DNA of 64,000 nt from Streptomyces pluripotens (GTDB lineage: Bacteria; Actinomycetota; Actinomycetes; Streptomycetales; Streptomycetaceae), in contig NZ_CP021080.1 in the NCBI RefSeq assembly GCF_000802245.2, forward strand, positions 2,294,001 through 2,358,000, given 5' to 3'. The position numbers and the translations under genes are program-made. Below, piece by piece: positions 32,455 through 53,805 of the stretch. The first letter of the stretch is position 1. Each line of letters starts with the position of its first letter. The notes beneath the pieces are model-generated. The model was not told the DNA's origin, made no database searches, and worked only from the letters and a program-made list of their open reading frames with translations.

Positions 32455-32973
32455 CTACAGCCCCGGGCCCGTGCCCAGGTTCGCGCCGGCGGCGGTCTGC
32501 AGTACCGGGGCGAGGAGCCCGGCTTCGGGAAGCTTGAGGTCAGGCAGGCCGAAGTTCTCGGGGTTGGGCGGCGTCAGGGGGGCGTCCACGTTCAGACCCG
32601 GGGCGAGGGTGCGCAGGTCGGAGGCCGGGGCATCGACGCCGACGTGGTCGAAGCGGTCGCCGAGGAGGTGCGGCACCGGTGCGCGCAGGTCGGCGCCGGG
32701 CAGGGTGCTCGTGACCGGGAGTTGGGGCAGGGTCCGGTCGGGCAGCAGGTGTCCGGTCACGTAGCGTGGCCCGTCGGGCGCGCCCGGGGTCAGCAGGGGC
32801 ACCTCCAGGCCGGCCGTGGGCACCTCCATGCCGAGGGACTGGGACACCCCGTCCAGGGGCACCGGAACCGGGACCGTACCGACCGCGGCGGCGGCGGGGG
32901 TGGCTGCGGCTCCCACGGCAGCCGCGACGCCCGTGATGACGGCGGCAAGGGTTCCTCGGGTGGTCGACTTCAT
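32455..32973 (-). CDS. Secreted protein of unknown function
   Basis: A 172-residue protein with a signal peptide ending near residue 30 (AAATPAAAA). The mature part has no cysteine and is rich in Pro, Leu, Val and Asp, built of short irregular pseudo-repeats (VPLLTPGAPDG, LPQLPVTSTLPGADL, NVDAPLTPPNPENFGLPDL). It probably is a disordered or beta-rich surface protein. I do not recognise a family. It lies between the melanin genes and VKOR among other surface proteins. Confidence 0.75.
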   Translation of the reverse strand: MKSTTRGTLAAVITGVAAAVGAAATPAAAAVGTVPVPVPLDGVSQSLGMEVPTAGLEVPLLTPGAPDGPRYVTGHLLPDRTLPQLPVTSTLPGADLRAPVPHLLGDRFDHVGVDAPASDLRTLAPGLNVDAPLTPPNPENFGLPDLKLPEAGLLAPVLQTAAGANLGTGPGL

Positions 32974-33089
32974 GTCAGGCACGGTCCCTTTCAGGATGCG
33001 GGGATTCGACGTCCGCACCACGTAACGAGCCGGAAATCGGCACCAGTTCACAATTCGCCTGACTGCCGTAATAGTCTGCTCGTCACTTT

Positions 33090-33674
33090 TCAGCCGGTCC
33101 AGAAGTCCCACCATCGGGTCAGCACGAGCATGCCGACCACGCCGATGTGCACGAGCGGCAGCACCCAGGTGAACTCGGCGAAGAAACGCTTGAGCCGCAA
33201 GGGCGCCGGTACGAATCCGTTGGTGACGATCAGCGAGGTGGCGTACCAGAACATCACGATGGTGGCGATCCAGGCGAGACAGCACCACAGGCACAGTGCG
33301 TTGATCCGGTACAGCGACTCGAACTGCAGCCAGGAGACGAAGCCGACCCCGAACAGGCATCCGACCTCGAAGAGCAGCCAGTACCACCCGGGGAAACGGG
33401 CTCCGGCCAGCAAGCTCACCCCGACGCAGATGACGATGCCGTAGGCCACCAGGCCCAGCATCGGGTTGGGGAACCCGAAGACCGAAGCCTGGTCGCTCTT
33501 CATCACACTGCCGCAGGACACCACCGGGTTCAGGCTGCACCCGGGGACGAACTCCGGGTTCTCCAGCAGCTTGACCTTGTCGAGGGTGATGACCCAGGAG
33601 GCGAGCAGCCCGGCCGCCCCGGTGAGCACCAGCAGCAGGCCGAAGCCCGTGCCACCGGCCCGGGTCCTGGACAT
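33090..33674 (-). CDS. Vitamin K epoxide reductase family protein (VKOR)
   Basis: A 194-residue membrane protein with four or five membrane helices. The redox pairs of VKOR homologues are visible: loop Cys46 and Cys54 (GCSLNPVVSCGSV) with the conserved serine nearby, and Cys128-LW-Cys131 in the fourth helix (NALCLWCC). Actinobacterial VKORs oxidise a DsbA-like partner and so make disulfides outside the membrane, passing electrons to menaquinone. The start overlaps the stop of the upstream DUF5949 gene. Neighbouring chaplins and rodlins each have two conserved cysteines. Confidence 0.93.
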   Translation of the reverse strand: MSRTRAGGTGFGLLLVLTGAAGLLASWVITLDKVKLLENPEFVPGCSLNPVVSCGSVMKSDQASVFGFPNPMLGLVAYGIVICVGVSLLAGARFPGWYWLLFEVGCLFGVGFVSWLQFESLYRINALCLWCCLAWIATIVMFWYATSLIVTNGFVPAPLRLKRFFAEFTWVLPLVHIGVVGMLVLTRWWDFWTG

Positions 33675-34165
33675 CAGCCGCGCAGGCTGGTGGCCGGCAG
33701 GACGATATGTGCGGCGGCGTTCAGGGTCTCCTCGGCTCCGGCGAACGCGGCCAGCGTGGCCGGCTCGACGACCTTGCCGGGCTCGCCCTCGGGCCAAGCG
33801 CGGGTGGTGAAGACGAGGTAGGCGTAGCCGCGGTCGGCGACGGCGGCCAGCCACTCCTCGGGCGCGTCCGCCTGGGCGACCAGTTGCGGCATCTGGACGA
33901 CTGCCTGGCCGGCCTCGACCAGCAGTCTGACGGGAAGGCTGGGCTTGGCGTTGCCGTCGACCAGTTCGCCGCCGACCGGCAGTCCGTTGCTCGCCAGCAA
34001 CTGCTCCACCGCTGCCGCGGTGGCGTCCGGACCGCCCTCGGCGTCCCCGAGGGAGTAGGCCAGCAGGTAGGGCATGTCGGAACCGTCGGGGGCCTCACCG
34101 CTCCAGGCCAGGACGACGAGCGTGCCGAGGTCGGCGGGACGGATTTCGCTTGTGGTTGAGGTCAC
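33674..34165 (-). CDS. DUF5949 family protein
   Basis: A 163-residue soluble protein. The sequence features PADLGTLVVLAWSG, DMPYLLAYSLGDAEGG, LVEAGQAVVQMPQLVAQ and RGYAYLVFTTRAWPEGEPGK, which I recall as the DUF5949 pattern of Streptomyces. No catalytic residues are evident. GTG 34165 starts it; its stop overlaps the VKOR start (ATGA), so the pair is coupled and may share a redox or envelope role. Confidence 0.8.
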   Translation of the reverse strand: MTSTTSEIRPADLGTLVVLAWSGEAPDGSDMPYLLAYSLGDAEGGPDATAAAVEQLLASNGLPVGGELVDGNAKPSLPVRLLVEAGQAVVQMPQLVAQADAPEEWLAAVADRGYAYLVFTTRAWPEGEPGKVVEPATLAAFAGAEETLNAAAHIVLPATSLRG

Positions 34166-34335
34166 CGCGCGACCCTATCGACGCGCTTTGGTGCCGCCGT
34201 GCGGCTTCTCACCCTTCCGGAGCAGTGCCCAGGGATGCTCCACACGAATGAGGGAAGCGCCTTCGAACACACCAGGGGCCGGCACCGCGGGTGCGGTACC
34301 GGCCCTCTTCCGCGTTCCGTCGCGGCAGCGGGGTG

Positions 34336-34626
34336 TCAGCTCTGCAGGGGCAGGCCGCCGAGCAGCGGGTTGTGCTGGTTCAGCGCGCCGGTGGCACCCT
34401 TGACCGTGTTCAGCAGGGAGTCCTTGTTCTCGGTGTCGAGCGCGTCCGACTGGTGCTGCAGCGGCATCACGTCGTGCAGGGTGAGGGGACCCTTGGTGAG
34501 CTGGTTGACGGCGCCATTGAGGCTGGTGGGCGTCACATCGGCGGCGTTGTAGGCGAACGCGGGCGCGGCTGCGCCGGCGAGGGCCACGGAACCGGCAAGG
34601 ACTGCGGCAGCCTTCAGGGACTTCAT
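34336..34626 (-). CDS. Small secreted protein
   Basis: A 96-residue protein with a clear signal peptide (MKSLKAAAVLAGSVALAGA, cleavage after AFA). The mature 70 residues lack cysteine and contain SLNGAVNQLTKGPLTLHDVM and a C-terminal NPLLGGLPLQS. The size resembles other small wall-associated Streptomyces proteins but I cannot name the family. It sits among chaplin, melanin and surface genes and is likely expressed with them. Confidence 0.75.
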   Translation of the reverse strand: MKSLKAAAVLAGSVALAGAAAPAFAYNAADVTPTSLNGAVNQLTKGPLTLHDVMPLQHQSDALDTENKDSLLNTVKGATGALNQHNPLLGGLPLQS

Positions 34627-34736
34627 CGTGTTCCTTTCTTCGGCAACTCACGTCACCCCAGGGAATTCTGGCGCCGTGCCTAACGAGTTCCTGCCGGGCC
34701 GGAAACCCCGCGCGGAGAAGACATATGAGATCCCCG

Positions 34737-35776: not shown

Positions 35777-36016
35777 TCAGTCGTTGACGCAGGTGTTGCC
35801 GAACGCCGGGTTCAGCAGACCGATGACGTCAACGGTGTTGCCGCAGACGTTGACAGGCACGTGGATCGGGACCTGGACGACATTGCCCGACAGCACGCCC
35901 GGGGAGTGGGCGGCGACGCCCTGCGCGCCGGAGTCGGCGGAGGCCACACCGGCACCGCCGGCGACGGCCGCGACGGCGGCGGAGGTCAGGACCAGACCCT
36001 TCGCGATACGCGACAT
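35777..36016 (-). CDS. chpF: Short chaplin
   Basis: A 79-residue secreted chaplin. Signal peptide MSRIAKGLVLTSAAVAAVAG ends at GVASA-D. The mature part is a single chaplin domain: HSPGVLSGNVVQVPIHVPVN, VCGNTVDVIGLLNPAFGNTC, ending VND, with both cysteines. Short chaplins coat aerial hyphae and lower surface tension. ATG 36016 follows AGGAGTACCTCCCC-type sequence on its strand. Its place upstream of the glycosyltransferase operon on the opposite strand resembles chpF. Confidence 0.92.
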   Translation of the reverse strand: MSRIAKGLVLTSAAVAAVAGGAGVASADSGAQGVAAHSPGVLSGNVVQVPIHVPVNVCGNTVDVIGLLNPAFGNTCVND

Positions 36017-36501
36017 GGGGAGGTACTCCTTGGGATCGACACAAACATCCGGGCGGGATGCCCGGCGCTGTGTCAACGCGCGGCGTCCCCAAGGGTTGTG
36101 CCCCCAATGGGGTGATGCGGGGAAGGGGCCCCTTCCCGATTCGACGGCGACCGGGGCGGCCCGAGCGACGCCCTCACGCTCACCATGGGTCCCCGGCGCA
36201 CGCCGGTCACGGCGGGCGACTCCGCCAGCCCCCGACGACGTACTGACTTCCACGATCAGCGTCCCGGGTGGTGTACCCACGCGGCGGATCCCGGCCTACG
36301 CCAACACGCATGGCTACGACTCCGACGTGTTCGATCTCGGGGCGGCTCTGCGGCGCAGTGGTGACCAGCTGGGCTTCCGGCTCGTTGCCCACCGGGACGC
36401 GGCGTGGGCCGGTGCGCTCCTCGTCGCCGTGGACGCGCAGGGATGAGGCGCGTCCCCGACCGCAGTCCCGAGCGCCCCCCCATGAGCGAGGTATCCCGCG
36501 A
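36017..36501. promoter_or_regulatory. Divergent region, chaplin / exopolysaccharide operon
   Basis: About 485 bases between divergent chpF and the first glycosyltransferase. Open frames here have no ribosome site. It must hold both promoters, so the two surface components could share control. Confidence 0.45.
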
Positions 36502-37692
36502 ATGCACCATCCGTCACCCGCCTCTCGGCCGTGCGTCCTCCACCTCGCACAACCCGTCGACGGCGGGGTCGCCCGGGTCGTACTGGACCTGACGCGGGCC
36601 CAGCTCGCGGCGGGCCTGCGCGTCACGGTGGCCTGCCCTGGCGGCGAACTGGCCGCAGCTCTGCGGAAGCTGGGTGCCGACGTACGCGACTGGAGGGCCG
36701 GCCGGTCCCCGGGGCCCGGTCTTGCCGGCGAGGTACGGCGGCTCGCACATCTGATCGACGAGCTGCGACCCGCACTGGTGCACGCGCACAGCGCGAAGGC
36801 GGGCCTGGCCGGCCGGCTCGCTGTGCGCGGACGCGTGCCGACGGTGTTCCAGCCACACGCCTGGTCGTTCGCGGCGGTCGGCGGACTCACCGGGGCCCTG
36901 GCACAGCGCTGGGAACGCTGGGGGGCGCGCTGGGCCGATCGGGTGGTGTGCGTCAGCGAGGCGGAGCGCGCGACAGGCGAACGCGCTGGCGTACACGCGT
37001 CCTACGTCGTCATCCCCAACGGCATTGACACGGAACGTTTCTCTCCCGGTCCCCGGCCCGCGCTCCCGCCCCGCCCCGGTTCAGGAGCCGGCCCAGGAGC
37101 CGGTCCGAACACCGGCACGCCGGCCCCGCTCGTGGTCTGCGTCGGCCGGTTGTGCCGGCAGAAGGGGCAGGACGTGCTGCTGCGGGCCTGGGAGGACGTT
37201 GTGGCCGCGGTGCCACGGGCCCGGCTGATACTGGTCGGTGACGGTCCCGACCGTGCGGCCCTGCGTCGGCTCGCCCACCCCTCCGTGCAGTTCACCGGCG
37301 CCGTCGCCGACTCCGTGCCCTGGTACCGGGCCGCCGATCTGGTGGTGCTGCCCTCCCGGTGGGAGGGCATGGCACTCGCCCCGCTGGAGGCGCTCGGCTG
37401 CGGGCGCCCCGTGGTGCTCACCGATGTCGACGGCGCCCGCGAGAGCCTGCCCCCCGCCTTCGCCGCACGCTGCCTGGTTCCACCGGAGGACCCCGCGGCG
37501 CTGGCCGGGGCGGTCGCCGGACTGCTGTCCGACCGGTCGCTGCGCGCAGCCCTCGGCGACCAGGGGCGTCGGCACGTCCTGTCCACCCACGATGTGCGGC
37601 ACACCGCCGAACGGGTCGCGGCCCTCTACCGCGAACTCCTCGGCGACCGACCGCGCGTGCCCTCCGAGTGCAGGGAGTCCATCCACTCGTGA
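36502..37692 (+). CDS. Glycosyltransferase family 4, first gene of exopolysaccharide operon
   Basis: A 396-residue GT-B enzyme. The N-terminal domain has HLAQPVDGGVARVVLDLTRA and the HAHSAKAG motif; the C-terminal domain has VCVGRLCRQKGQDVLLRAW and the donor signature PSRWEGMALAPLEALGCGRP, which holds the EX7E glutamates. A Pro/Gly-rich insert lies between the domains (about residues 188-208). ATG 36502 was chosen over overlapping frames; its stop overlaps the GTG of the phosphotransferase (GTGA). Likely adds a sugar to the lipid-linked repeat unit in the cytoplasm. Confidence 0.9.
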   Translation: MHHPSPASRPCVLHLAQPVDGGVARVVLDLTRAQLAAGLRVTVACPGGELAAALRKLGADVRDWRAGRSPGPGLAGEVRRLAHLIDELRPALVHAHSAKAGLAGRLAVRGRVPTVFQPHAWSFAAVGGLTGALAQRWERWGARWADRVVCVSEAERATGERAGVHASYVVIPNGIDTERFSPGPRPALPPRPGSGAGPGAGPNTGTPAPLVVCVGRLCRQKGQDVLLRAWEDVVAAVPRARLILVGDGPDRAALRRLAHPSVQFTGAVADSVPWYRAADLVVLPSRWEGMALAPLEALGCGRPVVLTDVDGARESLPPAFAARCLVPPEDPAALAGAVAGLLSDRSLRAALGDQGRRHVLSTHDVRHTAERVAALYRELLGDRPRVPSECRESIHS

Positions 37693-39110
37693 CTGCGGAA
37701 AGTACCGTCCCCTCCCCCGGCGCGCAGCCATGGGACCACGGACTCTCGCCCGTCTCCGTTCTGCCGGCCCGTGCCGCCGGCGGATTCCGGTTCCCATTGC
37801 GACGCCCGCCCGCGCGGCCGTCCTCACCGCTGCCGCTGCTCACCGCCGACCTTCTCGCCGCGCTGTTGGGTGCGGTCGCGCTCGGCCCGACCGCCCATCG
37901 GCCACTGCTGGTCGCCGCGTTGGTGTCCGGGGCTCTGCTGCTGCGCCCGCATTCCGCGCGACGGGTGCCCGGTGTGCTCGACGAACTGCCCCTGGTGTGC
38001 GGGCGGATCGCGGTGGCCTGGCTGGGCCTGGCCTCGCTGCTCGCTGCCCACGCGCCCGAGCGCGCGCTGCCCGCCCGGACCCTGCTGCTCGGCTGGGCAC
38101 TGCACGCAGCAGCGGCCTGCACGGGTCGGGCCGTGGTGCACTGGCGGCGCCGGACCGCACTGGTGCGCCATCCGCGCACCGCCCTGGTGATCGGGCCCGC
38201 CGCGACCGCACAGCGAGTGGCCGCCGCACTGCTGCGACACCCGCGCTGCGGGGTGCGGCCGGTGGGCGTCGTGGCGGAACACCCCGACGGCAGCGGCGGG
38301 TTGCCCGTGCTCACCAGCGGCGAGGAGGTGGAACGGGCGCTGATCCAGAACGGGGTGCGAGTGGTGCTCACCGTCGACCCTGCCGTGCGCACCGGTGAGG
38401 AACCGCTACTGCGGGCACTCGCGGAGTCGGGCTGCGCGCTGTGGGAGGTGGCAGCGGACTGTCCGGCGTACGAGATGCGGGACGAGCTGGCCGGGTTCGC
38501 CGTACGGCGGCTGGATCTGGGCTCCGGGCGGCGCGGCAGTCTCGGCAAGCGGCTGCTGGACATCGTGGTCTCCGGGATGCTGATGGTGCTGGTCAGCCCG
38601 GTGCTGCTGGTGTGCGCGGTGGTGTTGCGGCTCACCGACGGGCCCGGGGTGGTCTTCCAGCAGGAACGGATCGGTAAGGACGGTCGCCCCTTCACGCTGC
38701 TGAAGTTCCGCACCCATCGCCCGGTCGACGAGCACGAGGCGGCCACCCGGTGGAGCGTGGCCGGCGAGCGGAAGATGAGCCCCTTCTGCCGCTTCCTGCG
38801 CCGGACCTCACTGGATGAACTGCTCCAGCTGTGGAACGTCTTCTGGGGGGACATGAGCCTGGTCGGACCGCGCCCTGAACGGCCTTACTTCGTGGCCCAG
38901 TTCAGCCAGACCCATCCGGGCTACGCGGCCCGCCACCGCATGCGGACCGGCATCACCGGGCTCGCCCAGATCAACGGACTGCGCGGCGACACCTCCATCG
39001 AGGACCGGGCCCGGTTCGACAACGCCTACATCGACAACTGGTCGCTGTGGCAGGACGTCTGCATCCTGTTGCGTACCGCGGCCGCGCTCGTACGCTCGAC
39101 GGGGAGCTGA
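37689..39110 (+). CDS. Undecaprenyl-phosphate sugar phosphotransferase
   Basis: A 473-residue polyprenyl glycosylphosphotransferase that starts a lipid-linked polysaccharide repeat. Several hydrophobic helices in residues 45-130, a nucleotide-binding-like middle domain, another helix at KRLLDIVVSGMLMVL, then the catalytic part: QQERIGKDGRPFTLLKFRTH, RRTSLDELLQLWNV and GDMSLVGPRPERP, the conserved motifs of the WbaP/EpsE family. It transfers a sugar-1-phosphate to undecaprenyl phosphate on the inner face. GTG 37689 overlaps the previous stop. Confidence 0.93.
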   Translation: MTAESTVPSPGAQPWDHGLSPVSVLPARAAGGFRFPLRRPPARPSSPLPLLTADLLAALLGAVALGPTAHRPLLVAALVSGALLLRPHSARRVPGVLDELPLVCGRIAVAWLGLASLLAAHAPERALPARTLLLGWALHAAAACTGRAVVHWRRRTALVRHPRTALVIGPAATAQRVAAALLRHPRCGVRPVGVVAEHPDGSGGLPVLTSGEEVERALIQNGVRVVLTVDPAVRTGEEPLLRALAESGCALWEVAADCPAYEMRDELAGFAVRRLDLGSGRRGSLGKRLLDIVVSGMLMVLVSPVLLVCAVVLRLTDGPGVVFQQERIGKDGRPFTLLKFRTHRPVDEHEAATRWSVAGERKMSPFCRFLRRTSLDELLQLWNVFWGDMSLVGPRPERPYFVAQFSQTHPGYAARHRMRTGITGLAQINGLRGDTSIEDRARFDNAYIDNWSLWQDVCILLRTAAALVRSTGS

Positions 39111-39113: not shown

Positions 39114-40487
39114 ATGGCCCTCGCCCTGCCGCTCCGCCGGCACCCGCGGCTCTCCCGGATGCTGCCCGTGCTGCCGCTGGTGGCCGTGGTCGTACTGCTC
39201 GCCCTGCCGGTCCCGCCCGGCAGCTCGGGCGGGGCGGGCCCCGCCGACGCGGTGTCCGCACTGGTCGTCGGCCACTGCGTCGTACACCTGCTGCGTGAGC
39301 GCCGCCGCCCGCTGACCCGTACCGCCGCGCTGCTCCTTGGCCTGCCGGTGGTCGGCATCTCGCTCGCCGCGATGAACGCGGTCTCACCGTCCGCCGGTAT
39401 CAGCGGCCTCGGCCGCTACCTCCAGGTCTTCGTCCTGGTCCCCGCCACCGTCGTGCTCCTGGTCCGCGACCGGTCCGGCTTCCGACTGCTGGCCTGGTCG
39501 TTGGTGGCCCTGGCGGGCTGGCAGGGCGCCGTCGGCGTACACCAGTACGTCACCGGGACCGGTGCCTCCTACCAGGGCGAGGACATCCGCGCGGTCGGCA
39601 CGTTCGGGGCGACGGACGTCATGGGCATGGCCACCGCGGTGTCCTTCGGACTGGTGTGCGCGACGGGTATCGCCCTGGGCCGGTCCGGGACGCGGCGGGA
39701 GCGCGTGGTCGCCGCCTGCTGTGCGCTCGCTCTGTTCCTCCCGCTCGCCCTGTCCTTCAGCCGGGGCGCCTGGATCGCCACCGCCACCACGCTCACCCTC
39801 CAACTGGCGCTGGCCGGGCTGCGCCGGGCGTTGAAAGTCGGCGCGGCCGTGGTGGCCGCGTGTGTGGTCCTGGTGGGCGGCCTCGGGGTGGGTACGGCGA
39901 TGCTGCAGGAGCGGATCGACAGCATCACCCAGGTCACCGACGCGCCCGACCAGTCGGTCACCGACCGGTACACCATGTGGGCCGCGGCGGCCGACATGTG
40001 GCGCGCGCGCCCGCTGACCGGCGTGGGGATGAAGGGCTTCCCCGAGTACCGTGATGGGTACGCCTCGCTCGCTCTGTCCTCCGGCGGCGACATCGAGGGC
40101 GCGGGCGCCGCGTTCCACCGACAGCCACTGCTCTCTCCGCACAACATGTACCTGCTGGTGCTCGGTGAACAGGGCCTGATCGGATTGCTCTGCCTCGTGG
40201 GCGGATGGCTGGCCCTGCTGGTGTGTTCCCTGCGCGGGCTGTGGCGGGCCCGCGCGGTCGGCGGTCGGGGCCTGGACTGCGCACTGGTCGCCTGCGGGCT
40301 GCTGGTCTGGCAGCTCGTGGACTTCGTGTACGCCGACATCGGCGGGCCCTCGACCGTGCTGACGGCGGTGTGTTTCGGGCTGGTCGCCTGGTGGGCCCTG
40401 GTGGGGAGCGAGGAGGTCACCGGCGCCGCCCGGGCGTCCGTACCGGCCGGGCGGGGACCGGTGACGGGAAAGGCGGTCGTCCGGTGA
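39114..40487 (+). CDS. O-antigen ligase / Wzy-like polymerase
   Basis: A 457-residue membrane protein with about eleven hydrophobic segments. The large periplasmic-type loop lies around residues 265-345 and contains RYTMWAAAADMWRARPLTGV and SPHNMYLLVLGEQGLIGLL, where the PHN-xxL motif is characteristic of WaaL/Wzy proteins. It polymerises or ligates lipid-linked repeat units on the outer face. Follows the phosphotransferase by three bases. Confidence 0.88.
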   Translation: MALALPLRRHPRLSRMLPVLPLVAVVVLLALPVPPGSSGGAGPADAVSALVVGHCVVHLLRERRRPLTRTAALLLGLPVVGISLAAMNAVSPSAGISGLGRYLQVFVLVPATVVLLVRDRSGFRLLAWSLVALAGWQGAVGVHQYVTGTGASYQGEDIRAVGTFGATDVMGMATAVSFGLVCATGIALGRSGTRRERVVAACCALALFLPLALSFSRGAWIATATTLTLQLALAGLRRALKVGAAVVAACVVLVGGLGVGTAMLQERIDSITQVTDAPDQSVTDRYTMWAAAADMWRARPLTGVGMKGFPEYRDGYASLALSSGGDIEGAGAAFHRQPLLSPHNMYLLVLGEQGLIGLLCLVGGWLALLVCSLRGLWRARAVGGRGLDCALVACGLLVWQLVDFVYADIGGPSTVLTAVCFGLVAWWALVGSEEVTGAARASVPAGRGPVTGKAVVR

Positions 40488-44583: not shown

Positions 44584-45236
44584 CCGAGAACCACATCCGG
44601 AACCACCGCACCTCCCGTCTCTCCCGTGCCCGCGCTCTGCCGCCCTGGTCGCTGGTGGCGGCCGGCGTCCTCGCGGGCGGACTGCTCGGCGGCGCGTACG
44701 GCGCGCTCAAGCCGCCGGCGTACACAGCCACCAGCTACGTCATCGCCGTTCCCACCGAGAAGTCCGACACCGCGTCGGCACTCGGTTTCGCACAGGCCTA
44801 CGGCCGGGTCGCCACCCAGCTGGCGGTGCTGGGCGACGCACAGGTGTGGGCCGGGGTGCCGGTGCGCACCCTGCGCGACAGCGTGCGCACCGCGACCTCG
44901 CCGGACGCCCCGATGGTCGCTGTCTCCGCCACCTCGACCCGACCGGCCCGGGCCGCGGACATGGCCAACGCGGTCGCGCGCGCGCTCACCCAACACGCCG
45001 ACCACACCAAGGCCGACACGCACGTCGAGCTCCTGCAGTTCTCCCGCGCGGCGAAGCCGACGACGCCGGCCTCGGCTTCACCGGGACTGACCGGACTGGT
45101 CGGGGCCGGTGCGGGCGGACTGCTCGGCGGTCTCCTCCTGCTGGTGCGGCCGGGACGCCGGCCCGAGGAAGAGACCGCGCGGCCGACCGCGGTGCCCGGC
45201 CCAGCCGTCGCCGTCGACGCGCACGGCCAGCTATGA
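44580..45236 (+). CDS. Wzz-like chain-length / polysaccharide co-polymerase protein
   Basis: A 218-residue protein with two membrane helices, residues 20-42 and 160-188, enclosing an extracytoplasmic domain that begins AYGALKPPAYTATSYVIAVP. This topology and the small-residue-rich second helix are those of Wzz/capsule co-polymerases, which set chain length. No bacterial tyrosine kinase domain is attached. It overlaps neighbours at both ends by ATGA. Confidence 0.78.
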   Translation: MTENHIRNHRTSRLSRARALPPWSLVAAGVLAGGLLGGAYGALKPPAYTATSYVIAVPTEKSDTASALGFAQAYGRVATQLAVLGDAQVWAGVPVRTLRDSVRTATSPDAPMVAVSATSTRPARAADMANAVARALTQHADHTKADTHVELLQFSRAAKPTTPASASPGLTGLVGAGAGGLLGGLLLLVRPGRRPEEETARPTAVPGPAVAVDAHGQL

Positions 45237-46382: not shown

Positions 46383-46440
46383 GGGTGTTGCGAAAGTCCC
46401 GCACAGCACCCACGGCGCAGGACTTTCGAAACGCCCCCTA
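46383..46440. terminator. Inverted repeat between convergent genes
   Basis: AGGGTGTTGCGAAAGTCC (46383-46400) and GGACTTTCGAAACGCCCCCT (46421-46440) pair over about 17 positions with few mismatches. It reaches the GH26 stop. Most simply a bidirectional terminator; a miniature mobile element end is another reading. Confidence 0.6.
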
Positions 46441-47727
46441 GCGGCTCCGCGACCACCAGTCGAATCGGATGCAGAGCTTGCCACCGAGCCAGTACTCGAC
46501 CCAGTCGCCGAGGTCCAGCGGCGAGCAGTGGGCCGGAGGCTCCTGGGGCGGCTTCGGGTTCGGGGTGGGTGTGACGGGCGGCGTGGTTGCCGGAGCCGGC
46601 TGATCGGTCAGGCCGTACAGGGCTGCCCGGTAGACCCTCGACGACCTGGGGTTGTCGGTGCACTGCCATACGCCGTGTGGGCAGTAGTCGGTCAGCGTGT
46701 TGTACAGCGGTTTGTGTTCGTCGAACCAGGCGAGCATGTGTTTCATGTATTCCGCGTCGTCACCATTGCGAAAGAGCCCCCATTCCGGATAGGAAATGGG
46801 TTTGCCGTGGGCTTTCGCGAAATCTACGTGCTGCTGGAGGCCGTAAGGCTCTTTCACCTGCTCATCGAACGACTCTCCCGTCGGCTGGTCGTAGGAGTCC
46901 ATGCCGATGATGTCGACCGTGTCGTCACCCGGATAGCACTCGGTCCAGGGCACGGCGTCCCGGCCGCGGCTCGGTGCGAAATCGAACCGAAACTTCTGGC
47001 CCGGCACCGAACGCATGGTGGTGACGATCCTCCTCCAATACTTCTTCCAGTTCTCCGGATCCGGACCGCAGCGATGGGTGTACGTGGTGCCGTTCATCTC
47101 CCAGCCGAGCACGATCACCGTGTCCGGGACCTTCAACTCCACCAGCCGCTCGGCCAGAGCCTTGAAGTGAGGGTCGAACGCGCCGGCCGCACCCTGCCGC
47201 AGCAACGACCGCACCTGACCGTCGGGAACGTTCTCCTCGTTGCGTTCCTGCATCGGCACGTTGAGGACCAGCATCCGGTCCACCTGCTCGCGCCGCCAGT
47301 GAGCCCATACGTCCAGGAAGCCGGGTGGGCCCTCGATGTCACGCCAGCGGCCACCGGGCAGGTAGGTGTGGGCGACCTTCAGCTCGGTCCCGCCGAGCCA
47401 GTGGCTCAGCTCGGCCATGCGCGCGACCCCGCGCGGCCCGGAGTCGAGGAAGGCCCCGAACGGCGGAACCGTCTTGGCTCCCACCGGGGACACCGGGGAC
47501 AGTGCCTGGCCGCTCGGGACCGGGGCCACCGGAGCGGCCGAAGTCACCGGAGGTACCACGCCGACCGGTTTCTGGGTCGTCGGCGTGGGAGTGGGGGGAT
47601 CGGAGACCCGCACCACTCCCGGGCCGGCGGCGAAGCCAGGTCCGACCGCCAGGATGACCGTCGCGGCGACCGCCACCGCGATGACAGCCAGCCGTCGGGA
47701 CCGAGCCCTGCGCTGCTGTGGAGCCAT
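46438..47727 (-). CDS. Secreted glycoside hydrolase family 26 (mannanase-like)
   Basis: A 429-residue exported glycanase. An N-terminal signal/anchor (RRLAVIAVAVAATVILAVGP) and a Pro/Thr linker precede the catalytic barrel. GWEMNGT holds the acid/base Glu and SYPEWGL the nucleophile Glu, both as in GH26; DIIGMDSYD lies between. The C-terminal 60 residues are Pro-rich with two cysteines. It is transcribed towards the exopolysaccharide operon and probably trims a beta-mannan-type or the operon's own polymer. ATG 47727 has AGGAG six bases away. Confidence 0.87.
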   Translation of the reverse strand: MAPQQRRARSRRLAVIAVAVAATVILAVGPGFAAGPGVVRVSDPPTPTPTTQKPVGVVPPVTSAAPVAPVPSGQALSPVSPVGAKTVPPFGAFLDSGPRGVARMAELSHWLGGTELKVAHTYLPGGRWRDIEGPPGFLDVWAHWRREQVDRMLVLNVPMQERNEENVPDGQVRSLLRQGAAGAFDPHFKALAERLVELKVPDTVIVLGWEMNGTTYTHRCGPDPENWKKYWRRIVTTMRSVPGQKFRFDFAPSRGRDAVPWTECYPGDDTVDIIGMDSYDQPTGESFDEQVKEPYGLQQHVDFAKAHGKPISYPEWGLFRNGDDAEYMKHMLAWFDEHKPLYNTLTDYCPHGVWQCTDNPRSSRVYRAALYGLTDQPAPATTPPVTPTPNPKPPQEPPAHCSPLDLGDWVEYWLGGKLCIRFDWWSRSR

Positions 47728-47879
47728 GCCCGCTCCTCTCTCCACTCGCCCATCGGAGTCCAGGAAATACCTGGCTACTGACACTCAGTCATATCAATAT
47801 GAATTTCGCCAGTGCGGTTACGGCTTTCAGGTGGCCTTCACCCTCGCACGAGCGAACGGATGAGAAGGAAGAAATCGTC

Positions 47880-49220
47880 GTGTCGCTGCTGGACAATCGT
47901 GTCCCCGCAGTTCTGCTACGCATCGATCGGAATCCATTCCACCACGGCACCCTGGGCGCCGTGCGCTCGCTTGGCAGAGCGGGGGTGGAGGTGCACGTCG
48001 TCGCCGACTCCGCGGGAAGCCCCCTGCACAGGTCCCGTTTCGTGCGCCAGTTGCATCCGCCACCGCGCCCCGGCGCCTCCCCTGATGAGATCGCGGCAAC
48101 GTTGCTTCACGTGGCGGCCCGCTTCCCGCGCCCTGCGGTGCTGCTCCCGATGGACGACGCGAGCGCCGTCACCGTCAGCCGACTGCGTGCGGTGCTGGCC
48201 CCCGCCTATCTGCTGCCACAGCAGCCCGAGGCGCTACCGGAACGCGTGGCGGACAAGGCAGAACTGGCCCGGATCTGCGCCGCCGCCGGTGTTCCGCATC
48301 CAGTGACCCTGGTCCCGGACAGCGCCGAGGAGGCCGCGGCTGCCACCTGGCGGTTGGGGCCTCCGGTGGTGGCCAAGTGGAGCCGGCCCTGGCTGGTGCC
48401 GGGCGGCTGCGGACTGCGTTCGACGATGGTGGTGCGCTCGGCCGGGGAAGCACGGCAGCTGTACCGGCGCGCCGGGGAGGCGGGCAGCAGACTGCTGCTC
48501 CAGGCCTTCCTGCCGCCCGGACCGGACCGCGACTGGTTCTTCCACGGATATGCCGACCGCACCGGTGCCGTCCGGGCCGGCGGCCCCGGACGCAAACACC
48601 AGGCCTGGCCGCGCGGGGCAGGTCTGACGGCGGTCGGCCAGTGGACGCCCAACCCGCACGTGCAGGCGCTGGCCGAGCGACTCACCGACGAGTTGGGCTA
48701 CCGGGGCATCTTCGACCTGGACTTCCGCCGCTGCGGCAGTACCGGCCGCTACCACCTGCTCGACTTCAACCCGCGTCCCGGCGCCCAATTCCGGCTGTTC
48801 ACCGACAGCGCGGGCCTGGACGTGGTGCGAGCGCAGCACCTGGACCTGACGCTCCGTCCACTGCCGGACGGGGTTCCGCTGCCCGGTCGGGAGTTCGTGG
48901 TGGAGAACTACGCTCCGCTGGCCGCGCTGCGCCCCGCGCCCCAGGGACGGGAACTGGCCTGGCACGCGACGGACGACCGGGCGCCGGGTCGGGCGATGTG
49001 GGCCCTGTGGGGCCGGCACGCTGCGGGCCGGCTCGCCGCGCGGCTGCGCCACCGGGCGGCCGCCACACCTGCGGCACCGACCCGCCTGGTGCACCAGGGG
49101 GGTGCCCAGGACGACCTCTCCCACGACCGGCCGACAGCCTTGTCGGCAGCCCTGCCGACAACCCTGCCGGAGGACTTCCCCGACGACTTGCACGACGACC
49201 AGAAAGCGAGCAGTTGCTGA
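47880..49220 (+). CDS. ATP-grasp domain protein
   Basis: A 446-residue cytosolic enzyme of the ATP-grasp fold (COG3919-type, from memory). The N-terminal preATP-grasp part has VPAVLLRIDRNPFHHGTLGA; the grasp part has PPVVAKWSRPW (ATP lysine), FHGYADRTGAVRAGGPGRKH and the metal/phosphate block FDLDFRRCGSTGRYHLLDFNPRPGAQF, quoted in pieces: DLDFR and LLDFNPRPG. ATP-grasp enzymes join a carboxylate to an amine through an acyl phosphate. The substrate is unknown. Its stop overlaps the flavoprotein start by one base. Confidence 0.85.
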   Translation: MSLLDNRVPAVLLRIDRNPFHHGTLGAVRSLGRAGVEVHVVADSAGSPLHRSRFVRQLHPPPRPGASPDEIAATLLHVAARFPRPAVLLPMDDASAVTVSRLRAVLAPAYLLPQQPEALPERVADKAELARICAAAGVPHPVTLVPDSAEEAAAATWRLGPPVVAKWSRPWLVPGGCGLRSTMVVRSAGEARQLYRRAGEAGSRLLLQAFLPPGPDRDWFFHGYADRTGAVRAGGPGRKHQAWPRGAGLTAVGQWTPNPHVQALAERLTDELGYRGIFDLDFRRCGSTGRYHLLDFNPRPGAQFRLFTDSAGLDVVRAQHLDLTLRPLPDGVPLPGREFVVENYAPLAALRPAPQGRELAWHATDDRAPGRAMWALWGRHAAGRLAARLRHRAAATPAAPTRLVHQGGAQDDLSHDRPTALSAALPTTLPEDFPDDLHDDQKASSC

Positions 49221-50476
49221 TGTACGACCTCCTGGTGGTGGGCGCGGGCCCGTACGGCCTGTCCATCGCGTCACACGCCGCGACGGCCGGGCTGAACGTC
49301 CACGTCCTCGGGCGGCCCATGGATTCCTGGCGCGACCACATGCCCCGCGGCATGTTCCTCAAGTCGGAACCGTGGGCCTCCAACCTCTCCGATCCCGAGG
49401 GCCGTTGGCGGCTCGACGTCTTCTGCGCCTTTCGCGGCATGACGGCCCGGCACGCTGAACCGATTCCGCTGGAGGTGTTCACCGAGTACGGCCTGTGGTT
49501 CGCCCACAACGCCGTGCCCACGGTCGACGAGCGGACGGTGGTCCGGGTGGCACCCCGCACCGGCGGTTTCGAGGCCGTCACCGAGGACGGGGAGACGCTG
49601 TCCGCGAAGACGGTCGTGCTGGCCGTGGGCGCGCTGCCGTTCGCCGTGGTCCCGGCCTCACTACGCCACCTGCCCCCGACCCTGGTCTCACACAGCAGCC
49701 ACCACGCTGACCTGGACCAGTTCCGTGACCAGGACGTCACTGTGATCGGCGGCGGCCAGGCGGCCCTGGAGACGGCCGCGCTCCTTCGGGAACAGGGCAC
49801 CCGAACACGGGTGCTCGTCCGCGAAGACCGACTCCGCTGGAACGACGTGCCACCGCCTTGCCATCGCCCCTGGTGGCGCGCGGCCCGCAGCCCGCACAGC
49901 GGCTTGGGCCCCGGTTGGCGGAACTGGTTCTACTCCGAGCGTCCCGACCTGTACCGACGGCTGCCGGAGCGGACCCGGACCAGGATCGCAGCCGAAGCAC
50001 TCGGTCCGGCGGGCGCCTGGTGGGTGCGCGAGCGGGTGGAGCGGCAGGTGGAGGTGCTGCTCGACCGGGAAGTCGTGACGGCGTGTGAAGTGCCGAACGG
50101 GCTGCGCCTGGAGGCTGCGGGGCGCCGAGGTGGAACCCGGGTGTGGGAGACCGAGCACGTCATCGCGGCCACCGGCTTCCGTGCCTCCGGCGACCGGCTG
50201 TCTCTGCTCTGCCCCGAGCTGCGAGCGCTACTGGCAACGGGCACCGACGGGGCACCCGAGGTGGGGGTGGAGTTCGAGTCGTCGTACCCCGGCCTGTTCC
50301 TGGCCGGTCTGGCCACGGCCGCGAGCTTCGGTCCGGCGATGCGGTTCGTGCACGGCGCGACCTTCACCGCGGGCACGCTGGTCCGCGGCGTACGGCGGCG
50401 GCTGCGCACAGGGCCGGCCGACTGGCGTATCCCGGCTGGCCGGCGTGGCGAGGCTGCGGTAGCGGTACGCCGTTAA
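49220..50476 (+). CDS. FAD-dependent oxidoreductase (flavin monooxygenase-like)
   Basis: A 418-residue two-dinucleotide-domain flavoprotein. The FAD motif VVGAGPYGLSIASHA is at 6-20 and an NAD(P)H motif VIGGGQAALETAALL near 173-187; ATGFRASGD is the late ATG motif. The protein looks like lysine/ornithine N-oxygenases and related monooxygenases, but the substrate cannot be read. It is coupled to the ATP-grasp gene, so both likely act on one small molecule or amino-acid-like decoration. Confidence 0.86.
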   Translation: MYDLLVVGAGPYGLSIASHAATAGLNVHVLGRPMDSWRDHMPRGMFLKSEPWASNLSDPEGRWRLDVFCAFRGMTARHAEPIPLEVFTEYGLWFAHNAVPTVDERTVVRVAPRTGGFEAVTEDGETLSAKTVVLAVGALPFAVVPASLRHLPPTLVSHSSHHADLDQFRDQDVTVIGGGQAALETAALLREQGTRTRVLVREDRLRWNDVPPPCHRPWWRAARSPHSGLGPGWRNWFYSERPDLYRRLPERTRTRIAAEALGPAGAWWVRERVERQVEVLLDREVVTACEVPNGLRLEAAGRRGGTRVWETEHVIAATGFRASGDRLSLLCPELRALLATGTDGAPEVGVEFESSYPGLFLAGLATAASFGPAMRFVHGATFTAGTLVRGVRRRLRTGPADWRIPAGRRGEAAVAVRR

Positions 50477-50528
50477 AAAATGCCGTGGGGCGGCGGGGTG
50501 CCGGGCGCTCGGTCCGGCACCCGGCGCA

Positions 50529-51437
50529 CTACCTACGGGCGGCGGTACGGCCGCGACGGTACAGGATCGCCCCGGCCGCGATCAGCACGGCACTGGCGGC
50601 CGAGGTCGCGAGCATCGCCTGGGACTCACCACCCGTGTGCGGAAGGCTGGGCGGGGAGCCCGGGTGGTGGTGCCCGCCGCCCCCGCCACCAGGCGGAGCG
50701 GTCTCGCCACCACCGGGAGGCGTGCTCTGACCACCACCAGGCGGAGTCGTCCCACCACCACCAGGAGGCGTGCTCTGACCACCACCAGGCGGAGTCGTCC
50801 CACCACCACCAGGAGGCGTGCTCTGACCACCACCAGGCGGAGTCGTCCCACCACCACCAGGAGGCGTGCTCTGACCACCACCAGGCGGAGTCGTCCCACC
50901 ACCACCAGGAGGCGTGCTCTGACCACCACCAGGCGGAGTCGTCCCACCACCACCAGGAGGCGTGCTCTGACCACCACCAGGCGGAGTCGTCCCACCACCA
51001 CCAGGAGGCGTGCTCTGACCACCACCAGGCGGAGTCGTCCCACCACCACCGTAAGGAGGAGGGGTGGGGTGATGGCCACCGGAGCCCGGATGGTCTCCGT
51101 AACCGCCGGAGTCTCCGTAACCGGAGTCGTCGGAGTCGTCCGAGTCACGGTGCTGGCCACGGTAGGGGTTACCCCAGTGTCCACTCGGAACGTATTGGTT
51201 GGCACAGGAGTTGCCGAAGGCCGGGTTCAACGCGGCCGCCGCATCGACGGAGTTGCCGCAGATGTTGACCGGAATGTTCACCGGGGCCTGGATGTTGTTG
51301 CCGGACAGCACGCCGGGCGAGCCCTGGGCGGCGCCGTGCGCGTGGGAGTCGGCGAGTGCGGCGCTGGCGCTATACAACGACAGCACGCCGGTCGCGGCAG
51401 CGGCCACGACCATGCCCTTACTGAGGGTCTGTCGCAA
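50529..51437 (-). CDS. Wall-anchored chaplin with one chaplin domain and a 16-residue repeat stalk
   Basis: A 302-residue surface protein. Signal peptide ends at AALA-D near residue 29. One chaplin domain (GSPGVLSGNNIQAPVNIPVN, ICGNSVDAAAALNPAFGNSC) follows. Then a His/Asp/Gly-rich part, about seven copies of TTPPGGGQSTPPGGGG, and a sorting end: SLPHTGG, hydrophobic helix, RRGRTAARR. Classic long chaplins ChpA-C carry two chaplin domains and LAxTG; this one has one and an LPxTG. TTG at 51437 is the start (MRQTLSKGM), with AGGAAG upstream. It occupies the ChpA position next to the short chaplin. Confidence 0.88.
   Translation of the reverse strand: MRQTLSKGMVVAAAATGVLSLYSASAALADSHAHGAAQGSPGVLSGNNIQAPVNIPVNICGNSVDAAAALNPAFGNSCANQYVPSGHWGNPYRGQHRDSDDSDDSGYGDSGGYGDHPGSGGHHPTPPPYGGGGTTPPGGGQSTPPGGGGTTPPGGGQSTPPGGGGTTPPGGGQSTPPGGGGTTPPGGGQSTPPGGGGTTPPGGGQSTPPGGGGTTPPGGGQSTPPGGGGTTPPGGGQSTPPGGGETAPPGGGGGGHHHPGSPPSLPHTGGESQAMLATSAASAVLIAAGAILYRRGRTAARR
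50723..51050 (-). repeat. 48-bp perfect tandem repeat in the chaplin gene
   Basis: Seven tandem units (the last incomplete), period 48, starting at each TGCTCTGA (50723, 50771, 50819, 50867, 50915, 50963, 51011). Units look identical base for base, encoding a 16-residue Thr/Pro/Gly unit. Confidence 0.95.
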
Positions 51438-51557: not shown

Positions 51558-51785
51558 TCAGTCGTTCACGCAGGTGTTGCCGAACGCCGGGTTCAGCAGA
51601 CCGATGACGTCGATGCTGTTGCCGCAGACGTTGACCGGGATGTGGACCGGAACCTGGACCACGTTGCCGGAGAGGACGCCCGGGGAACCGACGGCGGCGC
51701 CCTCGGCCCCGGCGTCGGCGAAGGCGGGGGCCGCCCCGCCCAGCGCCAGGATCGCGCCAGCGACGACAGCAGCGCTCTTCTTCAT
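51558..51785 (-). CDS. chpD: Short chaplin
   Basis: A 75-residue secreted chaplin. Signal peptide MKKSAAVVAGAILALGGAAP, cleaved after AFA. One chaplin domain: GSPGVLSGNVVQVPVHIPVN, VCGNSIDVIGLLNPAFGNTC, ending VND. ATG 51785 has AGAAGGGAAAG seven bases away; a GTG/ATG 24 bases upstream is less likely. The order long chaplin, short chaplin, rodlins matches chpA-chpD-rdlA-rdlB in S. coelicolor from memory. Confidence 0.92.
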   Translation of the reverse strand: MKKSAAVVAGAILALGGAAPAFADAGAEGAAVGSPGVLSGNVVQVPVHIPVNVCGNSIDVIGLLNPAFGNTCVND

Positions 51786-52078
51786 AGACTTTCCCTTCTC
51801 TGCGGTCATGCCCCTATGACGGCCGAAACCGAGCGAGCACAGCTTGAACGGCTCGCACCATGACCGGCAGGCTGTAGAACGAGGGATAGACAGCCGAAGA
51901 AACTACGGAACGCGCGTCGCCCCTGAATTCACTCGAACGCCTTCAGAGAATTGACACGTTGGCGGATACGCTCGGCATACAACACAGAAACGCTTCTTCG
52001 AGAAGTGACAACCAAAGCCGCCCGGACGGCGGCACCGAATATCGGCACGCCGCCCGAGCGGTCCTGAACCGGCCTGCC
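51786..52078. other. Spacer, no gene seen
   Basis: 293 bases between chpD and the first rodlin, both on the minus strand. The chpD promoter should lie here. Relatively AT-rich around 51880-51990. Confidence 0.4.
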
Positions 52079-52489
52079 TCAGTGGTTGGCCACGCCGTTG
52101 CCCGCCAGGACGGAGATGTCGTCCAGGATGTGCGAGAGCGCCTCGTCATCCTTGGCCTGGGTCGAGTTCTCGGCGCACTGCTGGTTCTGCGGCGAGGACA
52201 GGACCGGGATGTCCTGGACGCCGACGTTGACGACCGCGAGAACCGACTGGACGTCCGCCTTCGCCGGCAGGCCGACACAGAGCTTGTTCACGGAGCTCTG
52301 CACCAGCGTGGCCTGCGGGCTCATGTCGCCGCTCGTCACGCTGTTGCCGAACGCCTGAGAGGCACCGTTGCCGCTGAACGACGTGGTGCCCGTGTCGTTG
52401 CCGATGGCAAGCGCCTGGGGGGCTGCCGCCGCCGACACACCGACGAAGGACGCGGCGACCGCCGCCGCGGCCATTGCCTTCTTCAGCAT
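52079..52489 (-). CDS. rdlA: Rodlin
   Basis: A 136-residue secreted rodlin. Signal peptide [20 protein letters not shown], cleaved near PQALA. Core: [40 protein letters not shown] and [20 protein letters not shown], with the two conserved cysteines. Rodlins organise chaplin fibrils into the rodlet layer of aerial hyphae and spores. This copy differs from the other two: [10 protein letters not shown] and DDEALSHI. It is divergent from the next rodlin. Confidence 0.92.
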
Positions 52490-52749
52490 TTCGCTTTCCT
52501 TTCCTGGCTCCTCGCCAAGACGCACGTTCCTGCCCTCGCATCAACCGGAACAGCGCGGATTGGTTGCGGGGCATCACCCGATCGGATCGTTCGACGCGAC
52601 GGAATCGGTGGAATTCAAGCACCGGCGCCCGAGCCCGCCGCGCGCCCCCCGATGGGCCATCAGAGTGAATCGGAGCAACTCGTCGATGCGATGGGCAGTT
52701 GAACCAGGACGCTCCGGTGGACGGGGTTTCTTCAGAAGGGAATGAGTAA
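52490..52749. promoter_or_regulatory. Divergent rodlin promoter region
   Basis: 260 bases between divergent rodlin genes. Both promoters must lie here. Rodlins are strongly induced in aerial hyphae. No exact sigma-factor site is claimed. Confidence 0.5.
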
Positions 52750-53160
52750 GTGATCAAGAAGGTTCTGGCTTCCGCCGCGGTCGCCGCCTCTGTCGTCGGT
52801 GCTTCCGCCGCCGCCGCGTCGCCGGCCCTGGCCATCGGCAACGACACGGGCACCACCTCCTTCAGCGGCAACGGTGCCTCGCAGGCGTTCGGCAACTCGG
52901 CCACCTACGGCAACATGAGCCCGCAGATGGCCCTCATCCAGGGCTCGCTGAACAAGCCCTGCATCGGCCTGCCGGCGAAGCTCAACGCCCAGTCGCTGGT
53001 CGGCCTGGTCAACGTCGGCGTGCAGGACATCCCGATCCTGTCCTCGCCGCAGAACCAGCAGTGCACGGAGAACTCGACCCAGGCCAAGGGCGACGAGCCG
53101 CTCTCGCACATCCTGGACGACATCTCCGCCCTGTCCGGCAACGGCGCCGGCAACAGCTGA
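52750..53160 (+). CDS. rdlB: Rodlin
   Basis: A 136-residue secreted rodlin. Signal peptide MIKKVLASAAVAASVVGASA, then the core [40 protein letters not shown] and [20 protein letters not shown] with both cysteines. GTG start at 52750 after AAGGGAATG. The last 150 coding bases before the end (53005-53154) are identical to the following rodlin gene. A terminator follows at 53188-53216. Confidence 0.93.
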   Translation: MIKKVLASAAVAASVVGASAAAASPALAIGNDTGTTSFSGNGASQAFGNSATYGNMSPQMALIQGSLNKPCIGLPAKLNAQSLVGLVNVGVQDIPILSSPQNQQCTENSTQAKGDEPLSHILDDISALSGNGAGNS

Positions 53161-53187
53161 GCACCGCTGGCCCCTGACGGGCCTACG

Positions 53188-53216
53188 ACGGGCCGCCGAA
53201 CCCTTCGGCGGCCCGT
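53188..53216 (+). terminator. Terminator of rdlB
   Basis: ACGGGCCGCCGAA and TTCGGCGGCCCGT form a perfect 13-bp stem with loop CCC, 28 bases after the stop. Confidence 0.75.
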
Positions 53217-53397
53217 CCGCCGTTTCCGGACCCGGGCCCACGGTGCCGCCCTTTCATCCCGGGCAACAGACGGCGCTTGTGCACTCATCACACTGCGCTG
53301 GTCCGAACGGGGCAAAGAGCGCAACCCCGGAGGGGTTCCCACCGTTGACGATCATGCAACTCCTCCCCGGAGTCCGCCTTTCGAAAGGGACAGAAAC

Positions 53398-53805
53398 ATG
53401 AAGAAGCTGTGGGCAACCGCGGCTGTTGCCGCCTCTGTCGCCGGTCTCGCCGGAGCGGCGGCCCCCCAGGCCCTCGCCATCGGTGACGACCACGGCACCA
53501 CGTCGTTCAGCGGCAATGGCGCCTCGCAGGCGTTCGGCAACTCGGCCACCTTCGGCGACATGAGCCCGCAGCTCTCGCTGGTCCAGGGTTCGCTGAACAA
53601 GCCCTGCATCGGTCTGCCGGCGAAGGTCAACGCCCAGTCGATCCTTGCTCTGGTCAACGTCGGCGTGCAGGACATCCCGATCCTGTCCTCGCCGCAGAAC
53701 CAGCAGTGCACGGAGAACTCGACCCAGGCCAAGGGCGACGAGCCGCTCTCGCACATCCTGGACGACATCTCCGCCCTGTCCGGCAACGGCGCCGGCAACG
53801 GCTGA
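53398..53805 (+). CDS. Third rodlin
   Basis: A 135-residue secreted rodlin with the same layout: [20 protein letters not shown] signal, [40 protein letters not shown] and the QQCTEN cysteine. S. coelicolor has two rodlins, so this is an additional copy. Protein identity with the preceding rodlin is high, and the DNA of 53650-53799 equals 53005-53154. ATG 53398 follows GAAAGGGAC. The signal peptide region differs clearly from rdlB, so the similarity is not a simple recent whole-gene copy. Confidence 0.9.

Follow-up and report, generated by a model that had tools for sequence, protein, structure and literature searches.

A Wzx/Wzy-type polysaccharide operon recurrently linked to chaplin genes in Streptomyces and its possible role as an accessory surface polymer system

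Why should a polysaccharide assembly line be lodged among the chaplin and rodlin genes of a Streptomyces chromosome? The question is raised by the window, a stretch of 64,000 nucleotides (positions 2294001-2358000 of the single-contig 7.35-Mb genome of Streptomyces pluripotens), in which an eight-gene operon and a gene for a GH26-like glycoside hydrolase lie within a group of surface genes spanning 30474-53805 (Table 1). A sequence-only reading of this region had proposed co-assembly of the rodlet layer with the product of the operon. Our comparisons speak against that proposal. We lean towards the view that the operon makes a Wzx/Wzy-type exopolysaccharide acting at the hyphal surface as an accessory layer for adhesion or hydration, in which chaplin fibres are possibly embedded. 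On our best reading this accessory polymer would be partly deacetylated and acyl-modified by a holdfast-like enzyme kit, with chaplin linkage confined to some lineages. It looks like an optional companion and not a part of the coat itself, because coat genes occur also without the operon.

The assembly line itself is borne out as a plausible Wzx/Wzy-type pathway. Family assignments hold for all eight genes, the Wzz-like one below threshold, and the predicted GH26 glycanase was recovered by a GH26-like match above its cut-off. The phosphotransferase exceeds the general exopolysaccharide model TIGR03025, as expected of the initiating enzyme of a Wzx/Wzy locus, and the flippase (PF03023) and Wzy (PF04932), the other pair expected there, both score above cut-off; by family alone, the MurJ-type flippase may also be compatible with flipping of lipid II. 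Searched by sequence against solved structures, the GNAT protein has no relative at E 0.1, and its AlphaFold2 model (predicted local distance difference test, pLDDT, 83.1) finds FemX/FemA among the top PDB matches. The solved relatives of the GH26 protein are GH26 proteins, mostly mannanases, and distant (best E 6e-5). In this strain none of the eight reading frames is interrupted, and each has its normal length. The genes had been described as overlapping end to end, which is true of five of the seven junctions (by 4, 17, 4, 4 and 4 bases); the other two are gapped, by 3 bases (39110/39114) and by 79 or 127 bases from 40487 to the flippase start.

In the pathway that we propose, the phosphotransferase would put the first sugar onto undecaprenyl phosphate, the two GT4 enzymes would lengthen the repeat unit, the cytoplasmic deacetylase would free amines and the FemX-like acyltransferase would alter sugars or amines. 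The MurJ-type flippase would then carry the unit out, Wzy would polymerise it, the Wzz-like protein would determine chain length, and the extracellular GH26 enzyme might trim or free the polymer. The module mostly has its place inside a chaplin-rodlin district in Streptomyces and one sister genus, and a secreted DUF3344 protein heads many of the Streptomyces copies.

How widely is this unit conserved? The glycosyltransferase at 43420-44583 served as the marker for finding the operon in Streptomyces and occurs as a single copy in 95 of 121 genomes; three of these 95 loci are paralogues without the operon, two are partial operons and further ones are truncated at contig ends. The partial loci, L083 (G075) and L104 (G098), have an intact DUF3344 gene and contain either the phosphotransferase and one glycosyltransferase, or glycosyltransferases, deacetylase, and flippase and GNAT pieces. 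Two locus sets were used, one of 95 loci and one of 80 named loci, which overlap and include some identical genomes; none in the 80-locus set is labelled S. coelicolor or S. venezuelae. Across Streptomyces loci the operon is colinear, usually with GH26, which mostly but not always adjoins it, and the GNAT gene is absent from some loci. Within the family Wzy was detected in 54 of 81 genomes, representing 6 of the 17 genera; it was found in none of 12 genomes from other families of the order. The eight genes and GH26 are colinear at all usable loci of genera g7 (5/5) and g11 (12/12), and since GH26 stays next to the eight genes in three genera it probably belongs to the core unit. Seven loci of at least 17 kb in the 80-locus set (L173, L186, L187, L188, L196, L198, L200), probably a single clade, have neither a detected FemX-like acyltransferase nor a rodlin in the stretch examined.

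Linkage to chaplins could be judged at 75 of the 95 Streptomyces loci, 20 being dropped as contig-cut, partial or paralogue only. A chaplin stands in the flank examined at 62 of the 75 (30 on both sides, 14 upstream only, 18 downstream only) and at 13 none does; rodlins flank 36. When a 9.9-kb operon is placed at random in the window's genome, a chaplin is expected within 6.6 kb in 1.6% of cases. Given 62/75 in Streptomyces and 12/12 in g11 against about 1.6%, the linkage of operon and chaplins exceeds chance. Two of the 13 chaplin-less loci have a chaplin just past the stretch examined (~3.9 kb off in G069, ~10.6 kb in G043), a third has one ~100 kb away (G096), and in the others chaplins are at least 0.7 Mb away or on different contigs. 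Among the 60 loci of at least 17 kb from the 80-locus set, which represents the closest relatives of the query, a chaplin is present in 60 and a rodlin in 47.

The linkage is also seen in rearranged surroundings. In one Streptomyces clade the operon, a chaplin, melC2, melC1 and GH26 are grouped together, the chaplin following the last operon gene at 170-253 bases in the 12 genomes measured and directly in a thirteenth, G068, whose downstream values were set by hand from gene order because a second phosphotransferase had misplaced the operon end. In the near-complete members G005, G076, G077, G108 and G063 the distance from the operon to a contig end is 0.13-0.56 Mb and that to the rodlins 0.7-6.3 Mb; the corresponding distances in G068 are 1.29 Mb and 0.25 Mb. 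We take this as a shift of the operon toward a chromosome arm, with the reservation that contig ends need not equal chromosome ends. G108, a member of this clade, is without a chaplin at the operon. Genus g11 has both chaplins and rodlins in the flank examined at 12 of 12 loci, in the order rodlin, chaplins, rodlin, operon, GH26, melC1, melC2, and a further chaplin in 11 of them.

Several observations nevertheless weigh against a chaplin-associated surface layer. In genera g7, g14, g15 and g18 the operon stands apart from chaplins, with linkage in 0 of 18 genomes: chaplins are present in them (154 matches, of which most but not all were listed), none among the matches listed lies within 20 kb of Wzy, and the nearest is 42 kb away, these distances being taken from match positions alone in assemblies of which about half are fragmented. 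The basic function of the operon would thus be independent of chaplin linkage. On an operon tree of 73 of the 95 loci, those with five well-covered genes, the state of having a chaplin near or none changes only six times, so that the 62 linked loci are far from independent and owe their arrangement largely to shared descent. A BldN-like two-box pattern, drawn up by eye from the upstream sequences of the window (two earlier patterns matched none of 13 sequences), precedes 37 of 65 rodlins and 40 of 156 chaplins, against 2-5% in shuffles, and so misses many chaplins. Upstream of the first glycosyltransferase it occurs in 3 of 81 cases, the window being none of the three, where 3.7% would be expected by chance; upstream of the DUF3344 gene it occurs in forward orientation in 8 of 66 (50 shuffles: mean 1.7, maximum 7) and in reverse, the direction of chpF, in 41. 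Where the operon has been relocated, the chaplin that follows it directly has the pattern in 2 of 12 genomes. For these related sequences, and for a pattern that overlooks many chaplins, the counts argue, though not decisively, against a promoter type shared by chaplins and operon. BldN controls chaplins and rodlins, as stated in the accessible part of one paper (PMC4125116); BldN-type co-regulation of the operon is made less likely by the counts of 3/81 and 8/66. Finally, deletion of wps-3 in Actinoplanes missouriensis, a cluster compared below, left sporangia normal and gave no phenotype in the part of the report available (PMC13390465).

Are the coat genes, for their part, dependent on the operon? 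Genomes can retain chaplins and rodlins without it. All 26 Streptomyces genomes lacking the marker glycosyltransferase retain chaplins, with 4-14 chaplin domains each, and 20 chaplin clusters were retrieved from 16 of them. In three of these, L205, L211 and L218, chaplins and rodlins are colinear with those of the window and the segment that begins with the operon and ends with the FAD gene is missing; most of the rest are other chaplin loci. These empty sites, with the scraps in L211 and L219, fit a history in which the cassette dropped out and left chaplins and rodlins in place. The scrap in L211 (G109), between chpF and the long chaplin, was recognised by eye as similar to the upstream element of the operon (ATTAGTACGGATAGCGGC), with no operon gene found there; L219 (G046) has an orphan first glycosyltransferase among chaplins at ~9483 on the minus strand, with 61% identity over nearly the full length. 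Of the Streptomyces tested, 8 of 30 operon carriers have no rodlins, and 5 of 6 genomes without the operon have them. Six of 29 genomes from other genera have rodlins that score above cut-off, just one of the six with Wzy, and 16 more have rodlin matches below cut-off. Operon and rodlins thus each occur without the other, and an obligate partnership between them is not found. All operon carriers tested have chaplins (14/14 and 18/18), a result of little weight, since every search for chaplins found some. Divergent rodlin-like proteins, at 35-50 bits against a cut-off of 75, were seen within ~4 kb of chaplin clusters in g7 and g18 (G174:C1:4722627-4726693, G177:C9:158127-162248, G193:C1:8624611-8629340); the accessible text of a 2013 review gives clear rodlins in streptomycetes only and very low-scoring matches in few others (PMC4255298).

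The head of the operon has its own history. In many relatives a secreted DUF3344 gene (~365 amino acids) lies between chpF and the first glycosyltransferase and heads the operon. Its family match of 23.7-25.3 bits is just under the Pfam cut-off of 27.2, and NCBI names the protein DUF3344; its model is all-beta (pLDDT 64.9), with template-modelling scores of at most ~0.3 among the 50 PDB matches listed. The gene is intact at 35 of 95 and 35 of 80 loci, and a piece is left at 6 and 14 in these overlapping sets. On the 73-row operon tree the gene switches state 18 times and both deep branches hold intact copies, a pattern consistent with repeated loss of an old gene. Of ~364 codons, 69 remain in the window, where, to judge from the intact relatives, a deletion took most of the gene together with a promoter-like element. 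The first operon gene had been described as facing a chaplin promoter, and it is indeed divergent to chpF, but the layout is derived: the remnant at 36234-36440 lies between them, and the operon faces the chpF promoter because the intervening gene was mostly deleted. The arrangement, being a deletion scar, was therefore rejected as evidence.

The element upstream of intact DUF3344 genes consists of GACAC, 36-47 bases and a TAGAGT-like box, and is present in 41 of 66 distinct sequences (shuffle mean 0.35). Within 700 bases of the first glycosyltransferase the same pattern is found at 8 of 20 loci that retain a DUF3344 piece and at 11 of 59 that lack the gene; several more have just the TAGAGT half close to the first glycosyltransferase. 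In the window, the 700 bases upstream of the first glycosyltransferase contain neither the pattern nor the TAGAGT half, and a sigma-70 scan of 35950-36520 found no site. The remnant block is conserved at 0.83, compared with 0.68 at the third codon positions of the next gene (36 pairs, nine loci), and may be a replacement promoter or simply reflect recent loss. A link to WhiA through the GACAC element was not retained except as a lead, several relatives having AACAC; in the accessible part of one study, WhiA targets often carry GACAC and the motif is judged too frequent for global comparison (PMC3781837). A further upstream element, of the approximate form GTGATTTC or CGATTTCG and then TCTGNCAAAGTGCACT, was seen by eye outside the window's clade, upstream of the operon in L073, L075, L077, L078 and relatives.

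These observations can be set against other accounts of the locus. It is possible, though we consider it doubtful, that operon and chaplins share a neighbourhood, as a block of surface genes, without any joint function, and that the polymer acts elsewhere, for instance as a vegetative capsule or matrix. Gene contexts track the clades of the operon tree; the unlinked operons of four genera and a conserved upstream element distinct from the chaplin motif agree with this account. It has more difficulty with the rearranged block, which retained a chaplin right after the operon in 12 measured genomes, and with g11, whose layout differs and yet is chaplin- and rodlin-rich at 12 of 12 loci; random adjacency of 1.6% does not explain these. 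Another account, to which we give still less credence, is that the operon is being retired in this strain, silenced by the deletion of the DUF3344 gene and promoter element. The absence upstream of the first glycosyltransferase of an element carried by 41 of 66 intact relatives, and of any sigma-70-like site at 35950-36520, could be read in this way, but eight open reading frames of normal length and a remnant block better conserved than third codon positions are not what a decaying operon would suggest.

A structural partnership between polymer and rodlet layer, in which the polymer would be expressed and assembled jointly with chaplins and rodlins, now seems improbable, the least likely of the accounts considered. 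Recurrent chaplin linkage in two genera (62/75 and 12/12), rodlins at 36/75 Streptomyces and 12/12 g11 loci and the presence of chaplins in every operon genome tested (14/14 and 18/18) are in its favour; chaplins in 26 of 26 genomes without the marker glycosyltransferase, however, make mere presence uninformative. The mutual absences of operon and rodlins (8/30 carriers without rodlins, 5/6 operon-lacking genomes with them, 1/6 rodlin-bearing genomes of other genera with Wzy), the loss of the whole cassette from the otherwise colinear clusters L205, L211 and L218, and the 0/18 in four genera all speak against it, and the BldN-like motif, at chance at the first glycosyltransferase and uncommon at the DUF3344 gene, weakens it further. 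An elaboration of the adhesive layer is hardly more probable: a holdfast-like cationic glue anchoring chaplin amyloid fibres to hyphae, parallel to cellulose or replacing it, in which the DUF3344 protein would have been the original linker between fibre and polymer and its repeated loss would mark lineages in which this role passed to chaplins alone.

How does the accessory layer that we favour compare with known systems? Among the clusters compared, the closest described one, by gene content and not by sequence, is seen to be wps-3 of A. missouriensis, which, in the accessible part of its report, likewise combines Wzx/Wzy/Wzz with a GT4 enzyme, a polysaccharide deacetylase and a BioF2-like acetyltransferase, differs in having aminotransferase and oxygenase genes too, and is transcribed early in sporangium formation (PMC13390465). 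The matrix polymer of imp in the same organism is degraded by the dedicated hydrolases GimA/GimB, comparable to GH26 here, and the available text never mentions chaplins (PMC13390465). The Caulobacter holdfast locus (hfs) shares glycosyltransferases, a flippase/polymerase step, the deacetylase HfsH and the FemX-like HfsK, for which FemX/FemA are the solved relatives reported in the portion of the source available (PMC5362036). In the window, too, a deacetylase and a FemX-like tandem GNAT stand beside Wzx/Wzy genes, as in a holdfast-type locus. The curated Hfs models were not passed (HfsE 130 bits against 750, HfsH 43.6 against 400), the deacetylase scores higher with PgaB (64.9 bits, also below cut-off), and the holdfast pathway differs in its outer-membrane export and Hfa anchors, neither seen here, and in belonging to a different phylum. 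Models of the XrtA/PEP-CTERM locus give the best scores for both glycosyltransferases (TIGR03088, 106.4 and 115.6 bits for a cut-off of 409) and for Wzy (TIGR03097, 62.2 bits for a cut-off of 188), all of them falling far short of these cut-offs; among the district proteins scanned no exosortase was found, and no genome-wide search was aimed at exosortases.

Streptomyces is known to make other extracellular polysaccharides, some tied to attachment or aggregation. The CslA/GlxA glucan and the MatAB poly-N-acetylglucosamine are of the synthase type. In the accessible literature these two and ebosin belong to other loci, and the ebosin ste cluster has 27 open reading frames, unlike the eight-gene operon here. 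To our knowledge, this locus is not included among these known surface glycans. The relative of ste in S. coelicolor is SCO0381-SCO0401 in the available part of its source (PMC4398421), gene numbers that make it a different locus from the operon. Our literature search, outside which most subscription papers lie, found no paper on this operon; with the same limit, the literature text mentions none of SCO2706, 2707, 2708, 2709, 2711 and 2714, and SCO2703, 2704, 2710, 2712, 2713 and 2715 come up in two papers, once in each; the operon genes are taken to have numbers in this series. Two or more of the district's chaplin or rodlin SCO numbers appear together in six papers.

The district around the operon is largely as the sequence-only reading had it, within somewhat different limits. 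Its four chaplins all exist, three inside 32455-53805 and the fourth at 30474-30809; the melanin genes, tyrosinase and melC1, are present and likewise lie outside that interval, so that the full group, with the outlying chaplin and melC pair, measures ~23.3 kb instead of about 20 kb. The VKOR gene was confirmed, as were three rodlins, the first by a family model and the other two by sequence likeness. Five uncharacterised secreted proteins had been announced; we count three that are signal-peptide-like and of no known family.

Table 1. Genes of the surface district and the operon in window coordinates; signal peptides were assigned by eye, and "outside" marks features beyond 32455-53805.
Feature	Coordinates	Strand	Basis and remarks
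Short chaplin, chpG-like	30474..30809	+	ChpA-C 101.3 bits; genome match; outside
Tyrosinase, melC2-like	30939..31844	-	PF00264 149.6 bits; outside
Open reading frame with tyrosinase cofactor melC1	31789..32346	-	PF06236 108.7 bits; true start uncertain; outside
Secreted protein, 172 amino acids	32455..32973	-	Signal-like N-terminus; no Pfam match; reading frame trimmed
Open reading frame with VKOR domain (33240-33635)	33090..33854	-	PF07884 140.7 bits (genome search), 138.5 bits (reading frame)
DUF5949 protein	33674..34165	-	PF19374 245.5 bits; no obvious signal peptide
Small secreted protein, 96 amino acids	34336..34626	-	No family above cut-off; recurs as neighbour in relatives
Proline-rich secreted protein, 289 amino acids	34737..35606	-	No family; recurs as neighbour in relatives
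Short chaplin, chpF-like	35777..36016	-	PF03777 99.8 bits; start located
Remnant of DUF3344 secreted-protein gene	36234..36440	+	tblastn; C-terminal 69 codons, 74% identity
GT4 glycosyltransferase (first)	36502..37692	+	PF13439/PF13692; best NCBIfam TIGR03088, below cut-off
Polyprenyl glycosylphosphotransferase, predicted initiating enzyme	37689..39110	+	PF02397 199.4 bits; TIGR03025 326 against cut-off 295.6; solved relatives WbaP
Wzy polymerase/ligase (Wzy_C)	39114..40487	+	PF04932 64.1 bits
MurJ-type flippase (Wzx role)	40615..42642	+	PF03023 199.1 bits; reading frame open from 40567
Polysaccharide deacetylase	42626..43423	+	PF01522 96.7 bits; no signal peptide seen
GT4 glycosyltransferase (marker)	43420..44583	+	PF13439 90.1 bits
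Wzz-like chain-length protein	44580..45236	+	PF02706 18.7 bits, under cut-off 25.5
FemX-like tandem GNAT acyltransferase (Acetyltransf_6)	45233..46381	+	PF13480 82.2 bits for longer reading frame
GH26-like glycoside hydrolase	46438..47784	-	PF02156 32.9 bits against cut-off 20.2
ATP-grasp-like protein	47880..49220	+	PF13549 19.8 bits, under cut-off; recurs as neighbour
FAD/NAD(P) oxidoreductase	49220..50476	+	PF07992 69.3 bits
Long chaplin, one ChpA-C domain and cell-wall anchor	50529..51437	-	PF03777 88.9 bits; PF00746 21.7 bits
Short chaplin	51558..51809	-	Genome match 51564-51731
Rodlin (first)	52079..52525	-	NF041022 213.9 bits
Rodlin (second)	52750..53160	+	Resembles first rodlin; served as rodlin query
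Rodlin (third)	53398..53805	+	Resembles first rodlin; served as rodlin query

The scar at the head of the operon exemplifies how reasoning from a divergent promoter in a single genome can mislead. The recurrent linkage of the operon to chaplins in two genera, on the other hand, offers a concrete candidate for the matrix that would hold chaplin fibres, and the chaplin clusters without the cassette, together with the operon carriers free of rodlins, provide ready comparisons for wettability and attachment.

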